From the NCBI GenBank assembly GCA_947038175.1, contig CAMQVJ010000016.1, positions 1 through 42,773 on the forward strand: DNA of 42,773 nucleotides, in the 5' to 3' direction. Shown here in pieces: positions 32,086 through 39,384 of the stretch; position 1 is the first letter of the stretch; each line of letters opens with the position of its first letter. The notes under the pieces are model-generated. The model was not told where the DNA came from. It worked only from the letters and a program-made list of their open reading frames with translations, and ran no database searches. The translations under genes were made by a program, and so were the position numbers. The stretch is from an uncultured Desulfovibrio sp. GTDB lineage: Bacteria; Desulfobacterota; Desulfovibrionia; Desulfovibrionales; Desulfovibrionaceae.

Positions 32086-33792
32086 CTATAAACTTTTCAT
32101 ACCAAAGCATTTGACAAAAACGTCTTGAGCTTTGTTGTCGCCAACTAGATAAATTTCTTCACCAGCATTGAATACGTGTGTAGGGAGAGGGTTTGCGATG
32201 ATAGAACCATCTTTTTTTCTCACCCCCACGACACTGCATAGTGTTCGTTCTCGTATTTTGCTTTCATGAAGGCTTTTGCCTGCGATGCGCCTGTTTACTG
32301 TGCATCGAAACATGGATAAACCACCTCTGAGCATGAATACCTTTCCTGGTATGAGCATATTGATAATTTGATTTGTCATGAGAGAAGCAAGGGAGAGAAC
32401 GACATTGGCACCTGCTTCGTGTAGTGTGTTCACGTTTCTGTCTAGGGATGCCCTGCTGAGTATTTGCACATCTGGACGTAGCTTTCTGCAATAGAGAGTT
32501 AGGTAAATATTAATATCATCATCATGGGGTGTAACTATGACAGTGGATGCGGTTTCGATTCCTGCCTGTTTGAGAACGTCGATATCCGTCGCATCACCAT
32601 GAATAAAGAGGACACCTTTTGGCACTTCTTTGAGTGGTATTTTGTCCACAATCACCACATCAATATTCCTACGGTGTACACTTTGGGCGGCAGCTATACC
32701 AACTCGCCCTCCACCGAGCACGAGTACTCTCGGAGCTTTTTCCGGCGTAGTATTTCTGTTTGCACTCATCATGACGTCGAACGCCGCAAATTCTTCTTTT
32801 GTGCCAGCCATAACAAGGGTGACATCTTCGGGCAGTGGCTCATCCGCTAAAGGAATAACAAACTTTCCTTTAACCCACATGCCCACAATATTAACCCCAA
32901 CTTGCGCACGAAGACAGCACTCTCGTAATGTTTTACCTGCCAAATTGGTGTTACTAATATTTGTTTCTGTCACCGTGAGGGACGCAAACCCCGTGAGATA
33001 GCTAGAGCTTCCCATATTACCCGCCACACGGCCAGCCAAAGACTCTCCAAGTAGTTTACGAAACATGAAGGGTCTTGAAGAACCTGCGAGAGCTATTATC
33101 TCTTGCGAATCAGCCTTTGCCACGATGGGGACATTGGCGTCCACTGCTCTGGCAGAAAAAATAATATTACAGTTTTTCTTATCACTATCAAGGGCAATTA
33201 TCATGGCGGCATCACCCACTCGCAGATTGCGGTAGGTGTTCTCATCATCGTAATCCCCCACCACAACATTATAACCTTGATCTTCTAGATTTAAGGAGGT
33301 CTGAATATCTGGACATAAGAGAATACAATAGAAACCATATTTTGTGAGATGATCCGTGAGATTGAGAGCTATAGGACTTAAGCCCACTACAATGATATGG
33401 TCTTGAATACTATGAGAGATAGCCCGAGGCGCACTGTTTTTTTTCTGCGCTTCTAGCCATGGCGAGTAGCCGTATTGAATGAAGGCAAACGGTAGCATAA
33501 CAAGCAATAATACAATGCCCGAAACAAGGACAATAATCGAAAAGGCTCGCCCTATATCAGAGACAAACACAATATCACCAAAACCCAAGGTAGACATCAC
33601 GGTCAAAGTCCAGTAGCAACCCGTAACCCATGAGTATTCTTTACCTTCATACGCCATAATATAATGAAACAATATACTGTACATGACAAACAAGGCAACA
33701 AAAATACCGAGGAATTTTAGAAAATATCTTGCTGTGCGTCGTATACTAGACTTTTGTAAAAAGAGGAGTACTTTAGAAATAGCAAACTTCAT
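32086..33792 (-). CDS. Two-TM potassium channel with two RCK/TrkA modules
   Basis: A K+ channel of the Kch/TrkA-fused type in the inner membrane. From the chosen ATG (33792, with AAAGGAC upstream; the longer frame adds 21 residues that spoil the topology) it has 568 residues: TM1 at about 26-46, a pore helix and selectivity filter TLGFGD at 68-73, TM2 at about 84-105, then RCK module 1 (131-250) with TrkA-C (270-335), and RCK module 2 from 354 (VLVLGGGRVGIAAAQ) with a second TrkA-C to the end. The first nucleotide loop is degenerate (VVGLSPIALNL), the second intact, so nucleotide or ion control probably acts through the second. Divergent from the giant sensor protein upstream. Confidence 0.87.
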   Translation of the reverse strand: MKFAISKVLLFLQKSSIRRTARYFLKFLGIFVALFVMYSILFHYIMAYEGKEYSWVTGCYWTLTVMSTLGFGDIVFVSDIGRAFSIIVLVSGIVLLLVMLPFAFIQYGYSPWLEAQKKNSAPRAISHSIQDHIIVVGLSPIALNLTDHLTKYGFYCILLCPDIQTSLNLEDQGYNVVVGDYDDENTYRNLRVGDAAMIIALDSDKKNCNIIFSARAVDANVPIVAKADSQEIIALAGSSRPFMFRKLLGESLAGRVAGNMGSSSYLTGFASLTVTETNISNTNLAGKTLRECCLRAQVGVNIVGMWVKGKFVIPLADEPLPEDVTLVMAGTKEEFAAFDVMMSANRNTTPEKAPRVLVLGGGRVGIAAAQSVHRRNIDVVIVDKIPLKEVPKGVLFIHGDATDIDVLKQAGIETASTVIVTPHDDDINIYLTLYCRKLRPDVQILSRASLDRNVNTLHEAGANVVLSLASLMTNQIINMLIPGKVFMLRGGLSMFRCTVNRRIAGKSLHESKIRERTLCSVVGVRKKDGSIIANPLPTHVFNAGEEIYLVGDNKAQDVFVKCFGMKSL

Positions 33793-34134
33793 ATTATTAT
33801 AGTGTCCTTTGATTTTAATGCATATTACTGAAATCACGCAAATTTTATACCACAATCCTCTTAATAATACTAGGTATTTTAAAGGGGATTTTTTTAACCC
33901 ACAGAACGCTTGGCAATATTCAAATATTTATATGCGGAACTGATTTGCTCACCCCTGAGAGGACGAAGCAAAGAACAAGAGAGGAGGGATAGAGCATATA
34001 AAAGATTTTCTCCAAAAAAAACAATCATTCACACCCTAAAAAGGCTTGCGCCTCCCGCTCTTGTAGGATAATATACCCCCTTGTTCGTTCACTCTACGGT
34101 AGCTTTGAAAAATATATTGCGAGAAGCCTTGACC
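33793..34134. other. Divergent intergenic region between the K+ channel and the giant sensor
   Basis: 342 bases without a convincing gene. On the plus strand a TAATAT near 34068-34073 with TTGCGC 17 bases before it could be a weak promoter for the giant gene. A frame starting at TTG 34081 joins the giant gene but adds 18 residues before its signal peptide. No repeat of families A or B is seen. Confidence 0.5.
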
Positions 34135-37100
34135 ATGACAAGCATAAAAAAATATCCACATATTCTTATATTCACATGCATTTTCTTAGCATTCCTTACT
34201 TTGTTCACATCCCTTGCAAAAGCGGATGAAACAACAGAACAATCCCTTCAGGCCCTTGCGCCCAAACTCCCCTACCTTTCCGTCCAAGCCAAACAAGACC
34301 CCACTTATATCAGCCCGTATATGCGATACGCGTTTAACTTGCCTGTCCAAGACGCCCAAAGTGTTTATGCTCGCAAGGATGAATTTACGCCCTACGATAA
34401 TTTGCAGCTTGAACGAAAATTAGGCACATATTGGTTTTTGCTAAGTTTTTCACCTGTGCAAGATAAACAGATTTCCGCGGCATATCTTGATATTGGGAAC
34501 TTCCTTACTAAAGAAAGTAAGATTCTTATCTTGCCTAAGAACTCAAAAACATGGCAACTCCTTGACGATGTTTACACTCGAGAAAAACTAACAGGGTCAA
34601 ATACGCCCAAATCCGAGCTCGGCAGTATAGAAGAAAAATCCGAAATTTCTATGTTTAGCAGTGGACTATATGACCTTACAGCCTTGCGTGATGGGGGTGA
34701 ATTACTTATTTATTCACCAGGTGCGCCAAGTATTTGGTTTTCCCCTACTCTCACTTTGCCCGCAAAAGCCTCGGTTACTGTAGATAGAAGAATCGCACCG
34801 TTTATCCTTATCTCTCTTGTTCTTTTAATGGTCTTTTCTTTGTGGCGAGGCCTGCGTGAAGAGGGAGACGCTCGGCTATGGGCGACACTACTTACCCTTT
34901 TCGCCCTTATACAATATATTTGGGGAGTGCCACAAAATACAGATGGTGCTTTGCGAATATGGGACACTATCGGTATTATAAGCGCTGCGTGCGCCCTCTT
35001 TCTTCTACCTCATATTGGCCGACATTATATGGTGACAGAAAAAAATGCCCCTAATCTTGATGGCTTTTTACAATTCCTCGCCTTGCCTGCTATTTTTCCT
35101 CTCGCTATTATCTTCGTCCCTATTCCTGAATATTTTTCCATTATCCGCTTTGCTCCCTTGTGGGGCATATACGCCTTTCTTCCTCTTATTTTCTGCTTAC
35201 CCCTTGCTCTAAAAGGGCGTAAAGGCGCATTGTTTTATGTGTTCTTCTGTTTTTCTATCGGGACAGGGGCGCTTTTATCCTTAGCTTTCCGTTTCGATTC
35301 TGCGTGGCATTTAGCCCCATTAGCTGGACTGACCTGTGCTATGATAGCCATGTTCTTAGCGCCAAGACAAACAGAAAGAAATGTTTACGAAAAAACATAT
35401 ATCGATGATGCAGATAGCTTGAGTGATTTTGCAGAAAATAATATCCCTATGCGAGAAGCCTTTTTTAGGGTTGAAGCTAGACTGCGTGAACCCTTTGATA
35501 AAATTTTACGTGAAGCTTGTTTTCTTGACTTTGACATAAAAGCAGAAGATTTTGCGGAATCCGTAAATATACTTGCGGAAAAAAAGCTAGGGGAAACGTA
35601 TGATAAACATACACTCAACTCAATTGATGATATAGCTAAACGGTCTGAGCGCCTACGGACTCATGCAGATTTCTTAGTCCAAGCATGCCGAGACTTATCA
35701 GGAATGATGGGGCTTATGCCTCAGCTCGCTAAAAAAGTAACCCAGCAACATCCCACCCATGAGCTCTTCAACCTCAAAAATTTAGTTCTAACCGCTTGCG
35801 ACGATATTAGAGAAGAAGCGCAAGATAAACAGGTTGGGCTTGGTTGGTATATAGCCCCACAAATGGGTCTCTTTTACCGTGGTGATAAAGCAAGTCTAGA
35901 GATTGTTATAGGGCTTCTCTTGAAAGATGCCGTAAGAGCAACAGATAAGGGTATGATTAGTATACGTGTTCGCCGTGCGAATAATCCAAACCCTGGACAT
36001 ATTGTTTTTACTATTAGTGATTCAGGAAAAGGCAAACCACCAGTACAAAGAAGCCCACTTACCCTTATTAAAGCGTGGGAACTTTCTACCAATTATAATG
36101 GTCAAGTGGAATTGCATTCGTCCCCTAACGGGCTTAGTTTTTCCTTTAGTATGGAATGTGTTGCCATGGATGCACAAGGGCTAAAACCTCTTTCTTTTGC
36201 ATCGCTTGATGATATTGTTTTACTCAGTAATGAATTTGATAAAGGGCGAGCCAAACAAGCTGCGGCTTATTCCTCCGAGGGCGGCAAGAGTGGTGGCAAT
36301 ATTCTTTTCTCAAAGGAAAAGAATGGCAATCCAACGCAAGCGGTCGCCACCATGAATCCAGCGAATTATGCCGTGAATGCTTATGAACAGAATGACGAAG
36401 CATACTATATGTCCGTCACAGAAAATACAAAAATCAGCATATTGCTTATATCCCCTTTGGCAATTCAGCGCCAAAACCTCGCATGGTATTTGAACCAATA
36501 CGAACTATGGGAAGCTTTGGACGTGGACAGCGCCTTAGCATTTTATGAAAAGAAACCTGCCATGCTCGTACTTGTTCATAGCGCATTATCAGCTAATGGT
36601 TGTAACGCAGTGCTTGCAGGTATTCGCCTTTTGGAAGATAGCCTTGGCATTAGCCCTGCCCCTTTTGTTGGACTTTATCAGTCCGCTAAAGACATGGAAT
36701 TTTTGCGCCTAGCTGGCTGTAAGCATTTATTACCTGCCAATATCGGGCGAGAAGACTTATGTGCTGCCGTTGCTGAAATAATGGAAGATCCTTTCATTGC
36801 CCCTATTGCGAACATTGATGCCGAACATACCGTTATTCGGAAAACCACAAAGAAAGAATTAGATGCACAAAATTTAACAAATCAGCAAGCAGCGCAAGCG
36901 GTTGCTAAACGCCTTAATATAAAACGTGTGCATGTAGGACAAGTTATTGATGGTGCTATTGTTCAAGAGAACCAAACCCAAAAACCACAAAAAACTGGAT
37001 ACTCATCTCGTCCAACGAAAACCGCGTATTCACACAATAGCCAAAGCACCCAAGATAGACAGGCTCCTTATCAACGGGAAGTCAGACGGGAACATCTTTC

Positions 37101-39384
37101 TGAAATAATTGATGATACCGTGGATTATCCTTATGACGACAGCACACAGAGTACCCCTCATCATAATCATACAAGTGCAGACGCTACGCCTTCACAGCAT
37201 GTGCAGTCACAAAATAATGATACCTATACTCATAATTCGCATAACGCTATTTATGACGATGCCGATCTTGTAAAGCCACCAAAAAGCAAAACGGATACGC
37301 AAAATCAAAGTAATACATCTGGATTAATAAAAGAGAATAAAGACATAAACCCCGAAGCATATACGGATAAAAATCAAGATTCTGATACTAATAGCAAGAA
37401 TGAAGATGTACAGTCTGTCGAAAATCAAAAAAATAAAACGCATCAGCAAGATAAATCGACACTGCGTAGTGAGACACCTAAGCACAATAGAGAAGAAAAA
37501 TCTAAAACTGCTTTGACAGAAAAACACGGGTTTATATCTAAATTATTGCATGCCATCCGTCCAAAGCCATATATCTCTTTACAAGAAAAAAACGCATTGA
37601 GTGACGACTTGGTGGGCGAACCTATGCCTGTCGTTTCAAGCACAAAAAATGACTCAAGTGATCACAATGAATACGACACTGTGGATGCCTATGATGATGA
37701 CATCAATTTCTCACAGGATACAAATCAAGAAATAAGCGAAACCGAAGCCGACACGTTGACCTCTGCGGATAATAAAGACGACACGTTGACCTTTGCTAGT
37801 GGCGAAGACGACGACACCATTACTGATGCAAGTATAGTACAAGAGGTTTCAGAAGAAAGTCTTCAGTTTAAAAACGGCAGTCGTACTGTAGAGCAATGGA
37901 ATCAAGATGAACTGAATCATGCGCAAGAATCCCTTGCGGCAGACGCTGAAGAAGCCAACGAAACGGACGATGATACCAGTGAAAATTTCGATGAGAAAGC
38001 CAGCGCTCATAGTGATGAGGACAATAATGACTCTGAGAATGACGCCGATGATAGCAATAAAAACAGCGAATCCACTGACGACGACAATAATGATAACAAT
38101 GACGACAATGCAGACACCGAGTCTACAGACAACGACAATGCAGACGATAGCCTCCGTTTTTTAGGCAATATCGAAAGCCCTGCACATACAGACTCAAACG
38201 GTGGCTTAGTTATCAATATTTCTGATTCTATTGAAGATGAGGACAGCAAGGAACAAGAATCCAAAACAACGGGAATCGACTCCCACTTATCATTTCTACC
38301 AAGTGATACAGAGGATTTTGTTCATGCTAACGATGAGGACATTCCGATAATGAGCTCACTTCCTCGCCTCAACTGGGATAATGAATCTACACAATATCAA
38401 GATATCGAAAAGGAAAATACATTTTCTCCATCGGGATTAATTAATACACAAGACAAAATGGAAGACAATCATGTATCCATTAATTGGGATTTACCCGAAA
38501 GCATAACCAGTAATATAACCCAATTTGAGAAAGATAATTTCCCTGAAGACTTTACAGCATTCAAGGGCAGTCATATGCCAAAAGACTTGAGCAATGCAGA
38601 CCAAGCAAGCGAAGCCACAAAAAACGAAGAATTTGAAGACGTCGATGATAATAATTATGATGTCGATGGCAAAAATACTGATGACAAAAATAGTATAGAC
38701 GATGATTCCACTCATGCAGAACCTAGCCTAGGCACTTCTTCCAACGGATCACAGGAATTCCCCAAAGAATCAGTCACGGACGAAGCAGTCACGGACGAAG
38801 CAGTCACGGACGAAGCAGTCACGGACGAAGCAGTCATTACCAAAGACGCACAAGCAAGCGTTGACGGAGTGGAAACAGCTAGCACTGAAATGACCACGGA
38901 AGATACACCAGATACTACTGCGACGACTGCAACGACTAGCGATGCAAAAAACAATGCTGACGAAAGTAGTGATTTAACTGAGACCGATGGCACAGCAGAA
39001 AATGACGACATAGATTACGACGACGCAGACAGTGACGCAAAGAATGAAGAGATAGACAGTCAAGACAGTGACAGTGACAGTGACGACATAGACAATGAAG
39101 ACGCTATACTCAATCTCACCGACGACATGCTTCTCATCTCCACTGAAAAAGAGCCTCAGCACCCGAACGATAATATTCAGAAACTTAAACTTGAATTACC
39201 TGCGGGCAATGCAAAATCACGTCGGAAAGAAAGAAAAAGAAAAGAAAAAATCCAAAGCAAACTCGATATAAGTTTAGATTTGGATATTGCAGATTTCAAA
39301 GCAAAGACGAAGGATATAGAAAAGAGTCGCACAGACAAAACCATGCAACTCTCTTTTTTCCCTGTGGATGACACAGATAAATAA
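34135..39384 (+). CDS. Giant 7TM protein with pseudo-histidine-kinase and pseudo-receiver domains and a long acidic tail
   Basis: A 1749-residue envelope protein I cannot name. From the ATG at 34135: signal peptide 1-30 (cleavage after AKA), a periplasmic beta-type domain about 31-218 resembling 7TMR-DISMED2, and seven TM helices at about 222-409 (7TMR-DISM type). Then comes a kinase-like region. The H-box is EARLREPFDKIL (446-458) with Ala448 where the phospho-His should be. The ATPase-like part has LLLKDAVRATDKG (594-606), where the N-box Asn is Asp599; the G1 box DSGKG (629-633) is intact; the GxGLGL box is replaced by SPLTLI. Residues 766-885 look like a receiver (ILLISPLA, LVLVHSALS, FVGLYQS, LLPANI) with every phosphorylation residue missing. 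From about 900 to 1690 runs a disordered tail rich in Asp, Glu, Asn, Ser and Thr, then a basic end (KSRRKERKRKEK). It stands divergent to the K+ channel and ends nine bases from kdsD. Confidence 0.7.
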   Translation: MTSIKKYPHILIFTCIFLAFLTLFTSLAKADETTEQSLQALAPKLPYLSVQAKQDPTYISPYMRYAFNLPVQDAQSVYARKDEFTPYDNLQLERKLGTYWFLLSFSPVQDKQISAAYLDIGNFLTKESKILILPKNSKTWQLLDDVYTREKLTGSNTPKSELGSIEEKSEISMFSSGLYDLTALRDGGELLIYSPGAPSIWFSPTLTLPAKASVTVDRRIAPFILISLVLLMVFSLWRGLREEGDARLWATLLTLFALIQYIWGVPQNTDGALRIWDTIGIISAACALFLLPHIGRHYMVTEKNAPNLDGFLQFLALPAIFPLAIIFVPIPEYFSIIRFAPLWGIYAFLPLIFCLPLALKGRKGALFYVFFCFSIGTGALLSLAFRFDSAWHLAPLAGLTCAMIAMFLAPRQTERNVYEKTYIDDADSLSDFAENNIPMREAFFRVEARLREPFDKILREACFLDFDIKAEDFAESVNILAEKKLGETYDKHTLNSIDDIAKRSERLRTHADFLVQACRDLSGMMGLMPQLAKKVTQQHPTHELFNLKNLVLTACDDIREEAQDKQVGLGWYIAPQMGLFYRGDKASLEIVIGLLLKDAVRATDKGMISIRVRRANNPNPGHIVFTISDSGKGKPPVQRSPLTLIKAWELSTNYNGQVELHSSPNGLSFSFSMECVAMDAQGLKPLSFASLDDIVLLSNEFDKGRAKQAAAYSSEGGKSGGNILFSKEKNGNPTQAVATMNPANYAVNAYEQNDEAYYMSVTENTKISILLISPLAIQRQNLAWYLNQYELWEALDVDSALAFYEKKPAMLVLVHSALSANGCNAVLAGIRLLEDSLGISPAPFVGLYQSAKDMEFLRLAGCKHLLPANIGREDLCAAVAEIMEDPFIAPIANIDAEHTVIRKTTKKELDAQNLTNQQAAQAVAKRLNIKRVHVGQVIDGAIVQENQTQKPQKTGYSSRPTKTAYSHNSQSTQDRQAPYQREVRREHLSEIIDDTVDYPYDDSTQSTPHHNHTSADATPSQHVQSQNNDTYTHNSHNAIYDDADLVKPPKSKTDTQNQSNTSGLIKENKDINPEAYTDKNQDSDTNSKNEDVQSVENQKNKTHQQDKSTLRSETPKHNREEKSKTALTEKHGFISKLLHAIRPKPYISLQEKNALSDDLVGEPMPVVSSTKNDSSDHNEYDTVDAYDDDINFSQDTNQEISETEADTLTSADNKDDTLTFASGEDDDTITDASIVQEVSEESLQFKNGSRTVEQWNQDELNHAQESLAADAEEANETDDDTSENFDEKASAHSDEDNNDSENDADDSNKNSESTDDDNNDNNDDNADTESTDNDNADDSLRFLGNIESPAHTDSNGGLVINISDSIEDEDSKEQESKTTGIDSHLSFLPSDTEDFVHANDEDIPIMSSLPRLNWDNESTQYQDIEKENTFSPSGLINTQDKMEDNHVSINWDLPESITSNITQFEKDNFPEDFTAFKGSHMPKDLSNADQASEATKNEEFEDVDDNNYDVDGKNTDDKNSIDDDSTHAEPSLGTSSNGSQEFPKESVTDEAVTDEAVTDEAVTDEAVITKDAQASVDGVETASTEMTTEDTPDTTATTATTSDAKNNADESSDLTETDGTAENDDIDYDDADSDAKNEEIDSQDSDSDSDDIDNEDAILNLTDDMLLISTEKEPQHPNDNIQKLKLELPAGNAKSRRKERKRKEKIQSKLDISLDLDIADFKAKTKDIEKSRTDKTMQLSFFPVDDTDK
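38771..38830 (+). repeat. 15-bp x4 perfect tandem repeat in the giant gene
   Basis: Four identical copies of CAGTCACGGACGAAG, followed by a broken fifth start (CAGTCAT). It encodes repeated VTDEA. Being a multiple of three, copy number could vary without breaking the frame. Confidence 0.97.

Follow-up and report, generated by a model that had tools for sequence, protein, structure and literature searches.

We describe a membrane receptor from a gut bacterium of the genus Taurinivorans, encoded in a 42,773-nucleotide stretch of DNA (hereafter the window), that has probably been kept as a non-phosphorylating transmembrane receptor after stepwise loss of phosphotransfer. Alignments and structure models together show the descent of the gene from a tripartite hybrid sensor kinase with a 7TMR-DISM sensor and HisKA, HATPase, receiver (REC) and HPt domains. 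Bacterial pseudo-histidine kinases are already known, mainly from single cases. What is unusual here is the extent, with up to three dead modules, a single family-wide loss, a graded series and a gene-specific motif. The receptor probably signals by changing its conformation and contacting a further regulator, in the manner of DivL or RetS, and our confidence in any specific partner is much lower. Searches of the open-access literature found no paper on this receptor family.

Architecture and catalytic residues of the receptor

The reading frame at 34135-39384 (+) is intact, begins with ATG and encodes 1,749 aa in the order signal peptide, 7TMR-DISM-type sensor, DHp remnant, HATPase-fold domain, REC-fold domain and acidic tail. 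Its features are as follows.

34135..39384, +: whole CDS of the 7TMR-DISM pseudo-hybrid kinase, 1,749 aa; orthologs found
34135..34224, +: signal peptide, about residues 1-30, ending AKA/D (by eye from the sequence)
34225..34779, +: periplasmic domain, residues 31-215, 7TMR-DISMED2-like (PF07696 matches in orthologs)
34780..35358, +: seven transmembrane helices, residues 216-408, 7TMR-DISM_7TM-like (AlphaFold model; PF07695 in orthologs)
35443..35712, +: DHp-like helices, residues 437-526, phospho-acceptor His replaced (model, HisKA alignment)
35476..35478, +: A448 at the H-box His position (alignment)
35767..36159, +: HATPase-fold pseudo-catalytic domain, residues 545-675, without ATP lid (family profile, model, fold match)
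35926..35928, +: D598 at the N-box Asn position (alignment)
36019..36033, +: G1 box DSGKG, residues 629-633, kept (G1 Asp in 99/109 members)
36439..36780, +: receiver-fold domain, residues 769-882, every catalytic residue replaced (profiles, alignment, model)
36577..36579, +: H815 at the phospho-Asp position (alignment)
36847..39381, +: acidic tail, residues 905-1749, net charge -127, without the HPt-like domain of relatives
37612..37629, +: VGEPMP, residues 1160-1165, the family tail motif (enriched vs shuffled tails)
38767..38836, +: tandem 15-bp repeat coding VTDEA, 4.7 copies, within the tail (98% matches)
39346..39363, +: C-terminal QLSFFP, residues 1738-1743 (conserved island within the genus)

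The sensor model (residues 32-428, 397 residues; pLDDT 88.7, pTM 0.87) has a stranded periplasmic domain followed by seven transmembrane helices. The window protein itself gave no PF07696 or PF07695 match in a Pfam search, and the two features of a 7TMR-DISM sensor, the DISMED2 and 7TM domains, were found through its orthologs: PF07696 (DISMED2) matches 45 of the 73 aligned members, at best 1.7e-12, and PF07695 (7TM) matches 29 of them. Similarities of the sensor to PDB folds (Wntless, GPCRs) were weak and are read as no more than a 7TM resemblance.

Catalytic positions were assigned by alignment to an intact relative, L041. The H-box SHDLRTP of L041 reads EARLREP in the window protein, so that His is replaced by A448, as the preliminary description had stated. 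The N-box GNAIR reads KDAVR, with Asp in place of Asn; this Asp had been numbered 599, which is an Ala, and is D598. The GxGLGx lid motif was not found in the window protein and the G1 box D629-S-G-K-G is retained, both in agreement with the earlier account. Within the REC-like part (769-882), the acidic pair has become S/P, the phospho-Asp H815, the Thr/Ser Y848 and the Lys Ala, which bears out the reported absence of all of them. Every feature of an active kinase that was tested, namely the H-box His, the N-box Asn, the lid and the receiver set, is missing from the window protein, and four other orthologs in its genus share these losses (the automatic alignment puts Leu at their H-box position).

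The HATPase and REC folds are present in the window protein, in the order of a hybrid histidine kinase. Pfam alone gave a sub-threshold HATPase_c match (E 1.9e-4); family profiles, whose seeds included the window protein, give it 151 bits in the HATPase-like part and 94 bits in the REC-like part. The model of residues 425-905 contains DHp-like helices, a lidless Bergerat (HATPase) fold and a clean five-fold beta-alpha receiver, the HATPase and REC blocks scoring mostly above 90. Foldseek against the PDB placed DivL (4q20, E 9e-13) at the top, followed by ShkA, GacS, HK853-RR468 and the RetS-GacS complex, with further matches to plant phytochromes (8isi) and the ethylene receptor ETR1 (4pl9). 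The TM-score against the ETR1 catalytic domain alone was 0.77 by target length; scores over the whole query were low because the query is multi-domain. Among solved structures, the family profile matched ShkA at 1.5e-42, RetS at 3.7e-30 and DivL at 1.3e-21, as well as stand-alone receivers (PleD at 5e-15, and CheY), and such strong matches to solved kinases and receivers place the HATPase/REC identity far beyond chance. The seven helices and both folds in the models, together with Foldseek and the family profile, support the initial reading of a 7TM sensor followed by kinase-like and receiver-like parts with their folds kept; since model and profile both find these folds, the idea does not fail through wrong folds.

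Distribution, ancestry and order of losses

The sensor-region profile detected one copy in 155 of 288 Desulfovibrionaceae genomes at 1e-5, a handful of which are weak matches to other 7TMR-DISM proteins, giving a true count of about 150. Across the order, members scored 1e-25 or better, nearly all better than 1e-70, and other proteins appeared from about 1e-24. The gene tree follows genera, and the receptor gene is single-copy and vertically inherited. One genome of the same genus as the window (G004, 98% complete) gave no receptor match although CcmB was present; the gene is lost there or lies in a gap. An apparent 2,962-aa fusion in L148 was rejected as a stretch of sequence read as N.

The comparison set drew on 18 genera and comprised 115 proteins that were full or nearly full, with an HATPase-like domain in 109, a REC-like domain in 112 and an HPt-like domain in 96. 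Only nine sequences, all from genus g22, carry the H-box His, which was detectable in none of the other 17 genera sampled; 47 sequences could not be aligned at this site and the others carry different residues, most often E, N or D. The N-box residue is Ser in 62 sequences, Asp in 24 and Asn in 15. Since the G1 Asp is kept in nearly all members, nucleotide binding may persist. A His at the HPt site occurs in one member only and is not credible as function. The HPt-like domain has persisted in most genera but was not found in the five Taurinivorans sequences (of which L034 ends at a contig end). L134, L135, L141 and L142 lack the HATPase part and L106 lacks both HATPase and REC; all five keep the sensor and the HPt-like domain, the latter of which may be the more essential there.

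The receiver residues have been lost less uniformly. Its Asp is kept in 47 of 112 members, being otherwise mostly Gln, His or Ala; its Lys is found in 34, and both residues occur in 30. Phosphorylation in trans may therefore matter in these relatives. A pseudokinase whose receiver is phosphorylated in trans, with the phosphorylation state setting a phospho-dependent scaffold, would suit these members, including L035, where the full receiver set is retained beside a dead kinase, but it is inapplicable to the window and its genus, in which the Asp is His and the acidic pair, Thr and Lys are gone; we regard this account as improbable. The claim that both modules are dead thus stands in part, and the loss is not universal. 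The residues are lost throughout the window's genus, the H-box His is not detectable in 17 of the 18 genera sampled and both modules are dead in some lineages, but g22 keeps His, Asn and lid, and the receiver Asp survives in the 47 members above, outside the window's genus.

Genus g22 retains the H-box His, the N-box Asn and the GLGL lid, and some of its members have kept the receiver residues as well. A single protein of this genus, L041, matches Pfam DISMED2, 7TM, HisKA, HATPase_c, Response_reg and Hpt; its DISMED2, 7TM and Hpt matches fall under the curated cut-offs. In another g22 member, L155, the kinase domain is not detectable, a second and independent loss of kinase function. The outgroup proteins come from genus g29 of the same family and from another family in the order. 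All are intact hybrid kinases, and those of g29 are fully intact tripartite ones, HPt His included. Aligned by eye, the HPt at the end of the g29 protein carries LHAHTIKGTAAGMG where L041 has QEATGRIGGSAASFG, a change of His to Gly within a surrounding signature that is kept.

On the outgroup-rooted tree, g22 is sister to the remaining members, whose 83 rows group in a single clade (99/91). A midpoint-rooted tree that nested g22 among dead lineages was set aside in favour of the outgroup rooting. The sister position of g22 therefore fits a single loss of the H-box His, and the order that fits is loss of the HPt His in the stem, of the H-box His once after the g22 split, and of the N-box and receiver residues later and repeatedly, with about 4 parsimony state changes for the N-box and about 10 for the receiver residues. 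Details within the tree are less sure because of long branches; the branch leading to Taurinivorans measures 1.77. The catalytic residues kept in g22 show the protein's ancestry and do not refute the idea. Because the outgroups and a sister genus are intact and the losses in the rest are graded, the order of change from phosphorelay to contact-based receptor can be read from the tree, and it is testable with real proteins.

Selection, acidic tail and neighbouring genes

We computed dN/dS by domain for 17 close pairs, in several of which synonymous divergence is near saturation. For the dead HATPase domain most pairs lay at 0.00-0.09, with two exceptions at 0.12 and 0.18, and the intact HATPase of a g22 pair gave 0.031. 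Values for REC were mostly under 0.27 (one of 0.79 on few changes), those for the HPt-like domain mostly under 0.08 (one of 0.25), and those for the tail 0.27-0.61. In Taurinivorans pairs, HATPase (0.046-0.065) and REC (0.043-0.062) were exceeded by the sensor part (0.08-0.11). The dead domains behave like functional parts and are maintained, and the strong purifying selection on them favours a non-catalytic role over decay. To this extent the non-catalytic role first proposed is upheld, and the scaffold or allosteric action proposed with it is a plausible form for that role to take. A decaying gene, a relaxed kinase remnant heading for loss, would agree with the stepwise losses, with the members lacking HATPase (L134, L135, L141, L142) or HATPase and REC (L106), and with the missing match in G004; set against open frames family-wide, persistence in 17 genera and dN/dS values of dead domains as low as those of intact ones, we consider decay very improbable.

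The long acidic tail reported earlier is confirmed: its 845 residues contain 24% D+E and 9% K+R and are poor in hydrophobic residues. The window protein has 1,749 aa versus about 1,300-1,440 in congeners, and the VTDEA repeat is a possible source of tail length variation. The motif VG[E/D]PxP occurs in 120 copies in the 115 proteins, versus 0.44 expected from shuffled tails. It is present in 10 of the 18 genera and absent from g22 tails, and its Taurinivorans form is without W, the window reading DLVGEPMP. A search of 16 whole genomes for the WVG[E/D]PxP codon pattern returned 17 matches, all within the receptor gene by coordinates. Five conserved islands, one of them basic and one QLSFFP, are shared by the tails of the window, L031 and L033, and in the C-terminal island three species are identical at 7 of 12 columns versus at most 4 in 20 shuffles. 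QLSFFP follows a basic KR-rich stretch. QLSLF is an example of a sliding-clamp binding motif, and the C-terminal QLSFFP looks like one, which is odd for a membrane receptor; we make no claim of it.

Comparison with relatives was needed to see three features: an HPt-like domain as third dead module, the tail motif and a TPR neighbour. The last of these, TPRb, a small TPR protein whose single hydrophobic segment is N-terminal, is encoded directly upstream of the receptor and co-directionally in 94 of 114 loci, often with an overlap of a few bases. In g4 and in 29 of the 42 g51 (Desulfovibrio) loci with enough flank, receptor and TPRb close a ccmEFABC-TPRa operon. The neighbours in the window are a divergent TrkA-type channel (32086-33855, an ion channel with TrkA_N and TrkA_C domains) and a convergent KpsF-like SIS/CBS protein. 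A search of five Taurinivorans genomes returned no TPRb ortholog, and TPRb therefore cannot be a general partner; it also occurs in receptor-less genera (L305-L308, E about 1e-57 to 1e-61). L308 has TPRb without an adjoining receptor. The TPR link is real, not universal and no proof of function.

These loci raise the alternative of a membrane assembly factor for cytochrome c maturation or other periplasmic biogenesis, in which the receptor fold would have become a platform that organises the ccm machinery together with the TPR protein, signalling being secondary or gone. The upstream TPRb gene and the ccm operons that the pair ends are what such a factor would lead one to expect, but TPRb is also found in receptor-less genera, and 270 of 288 genomes have CcmB versus about half with the receptor, which makes the receptor no general requirement. 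Because the ccm link is limited to g51 and g4, ccm lying apart elsewhere, and because the TPR neighbour is missing in Taurinivorans, we demoted the cytochrome c maturation link, which had first looked general, to a rival explanation, and we hold the assembly-factor account to be unlikely.

Proposed action and comparison with known systems

In our preferred reading, that of a receptor signalling without phosphate, the DISMED2/7TM part would sense a periplasmic ligand or protein, and the operon's TPR protein is a candidate, in most genera, for what is sensed. The DHp-like helices would relay the change to the pseudo-HATPase and pseudo-REC, and these two may act as binding surfaces for another regulator, either an active kinase in the RetS-GacS way or a response regulator in the DivL-DivK way; by analogy, either action would fit. 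The long tail could tether further partners via short motifs such as VGEPxP. Possible partners in the genome comprise 15 HisKA and 23 receiver matches, none on the window's contig. A wider reading joins two proposals: that a whole phosphorelay protein turned once, family-wide, into a phosphate-free receptor with a gene-specific tail docking motif, and that a membrane-anchored TPR partner in most genera ties this receptor to cytochrome c maturation in Desulfovibrio. We put it forward tentatively, and think it somewhat likelier to fail in some part than to hold as a whole.

The preliminary view that no described family has this build was too strong, as parts of it have precedents in DivL, RetS and RcsD. 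RcsD, of the Rcs phosphorelay, is a membrane protein with a degenerate kinase-like part that retains a working HPt His, whereas the HPt-like domain of the receptor family is His-less or lost; the RcsD NCBIfam model matches member L077 at 1.8e-10, far below the model's cut-off. Plant phytochromes and ETR1 are sensors too, and some members have histidine-kinase-related modules that are non-catalytic; unlike the receptor family, they are eukaryotic and have different sensors. Intact 7TMR-DISM tripartite kinases (L271 and L272 of g29, L041 of g22) share the domain order of the family: L041 is an ortholog with catalytic residues that lacks only the HPt His, and the g29 proteins carry additional domains between sensor and HisKA.

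RetS of Pseudomonas is a hybrid kinase with a 7TMR-DISM sensor and, to our knowledge, has neither an HPt-like domain nor a long acidic tail. The receptor family resembles it in this hybrid-kinase build and sensor, and in the profile match at 3.7e-30, but RetS has an established partner, GacS. It blocks GacS by forming a heterodimer, independently of its own phosphorelay residues (PMC4866733). DivL of Caulobacter has a histidine kinase fold in which the phospho-acceptor His is replaced by Tyr, or in one homolog by Ala, binds ATP weakly, and senses phosphorylated DivK with its dead kinase and no phosphotransfer of its own (PMC4211667). Published DivL combines PAS sensors with a C-terminal histidine kinase module and, unlike the receptor family, lacks a 7TM sensor, receiver, HPt-like domain and acidic tail; Pfam gave no PAS match in the window protein, whose sensor differs from that of DivL. 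Like DivL, the best fold match of its model, the window protein has kept a histidine kinase fold without the phospho-acceptor His.
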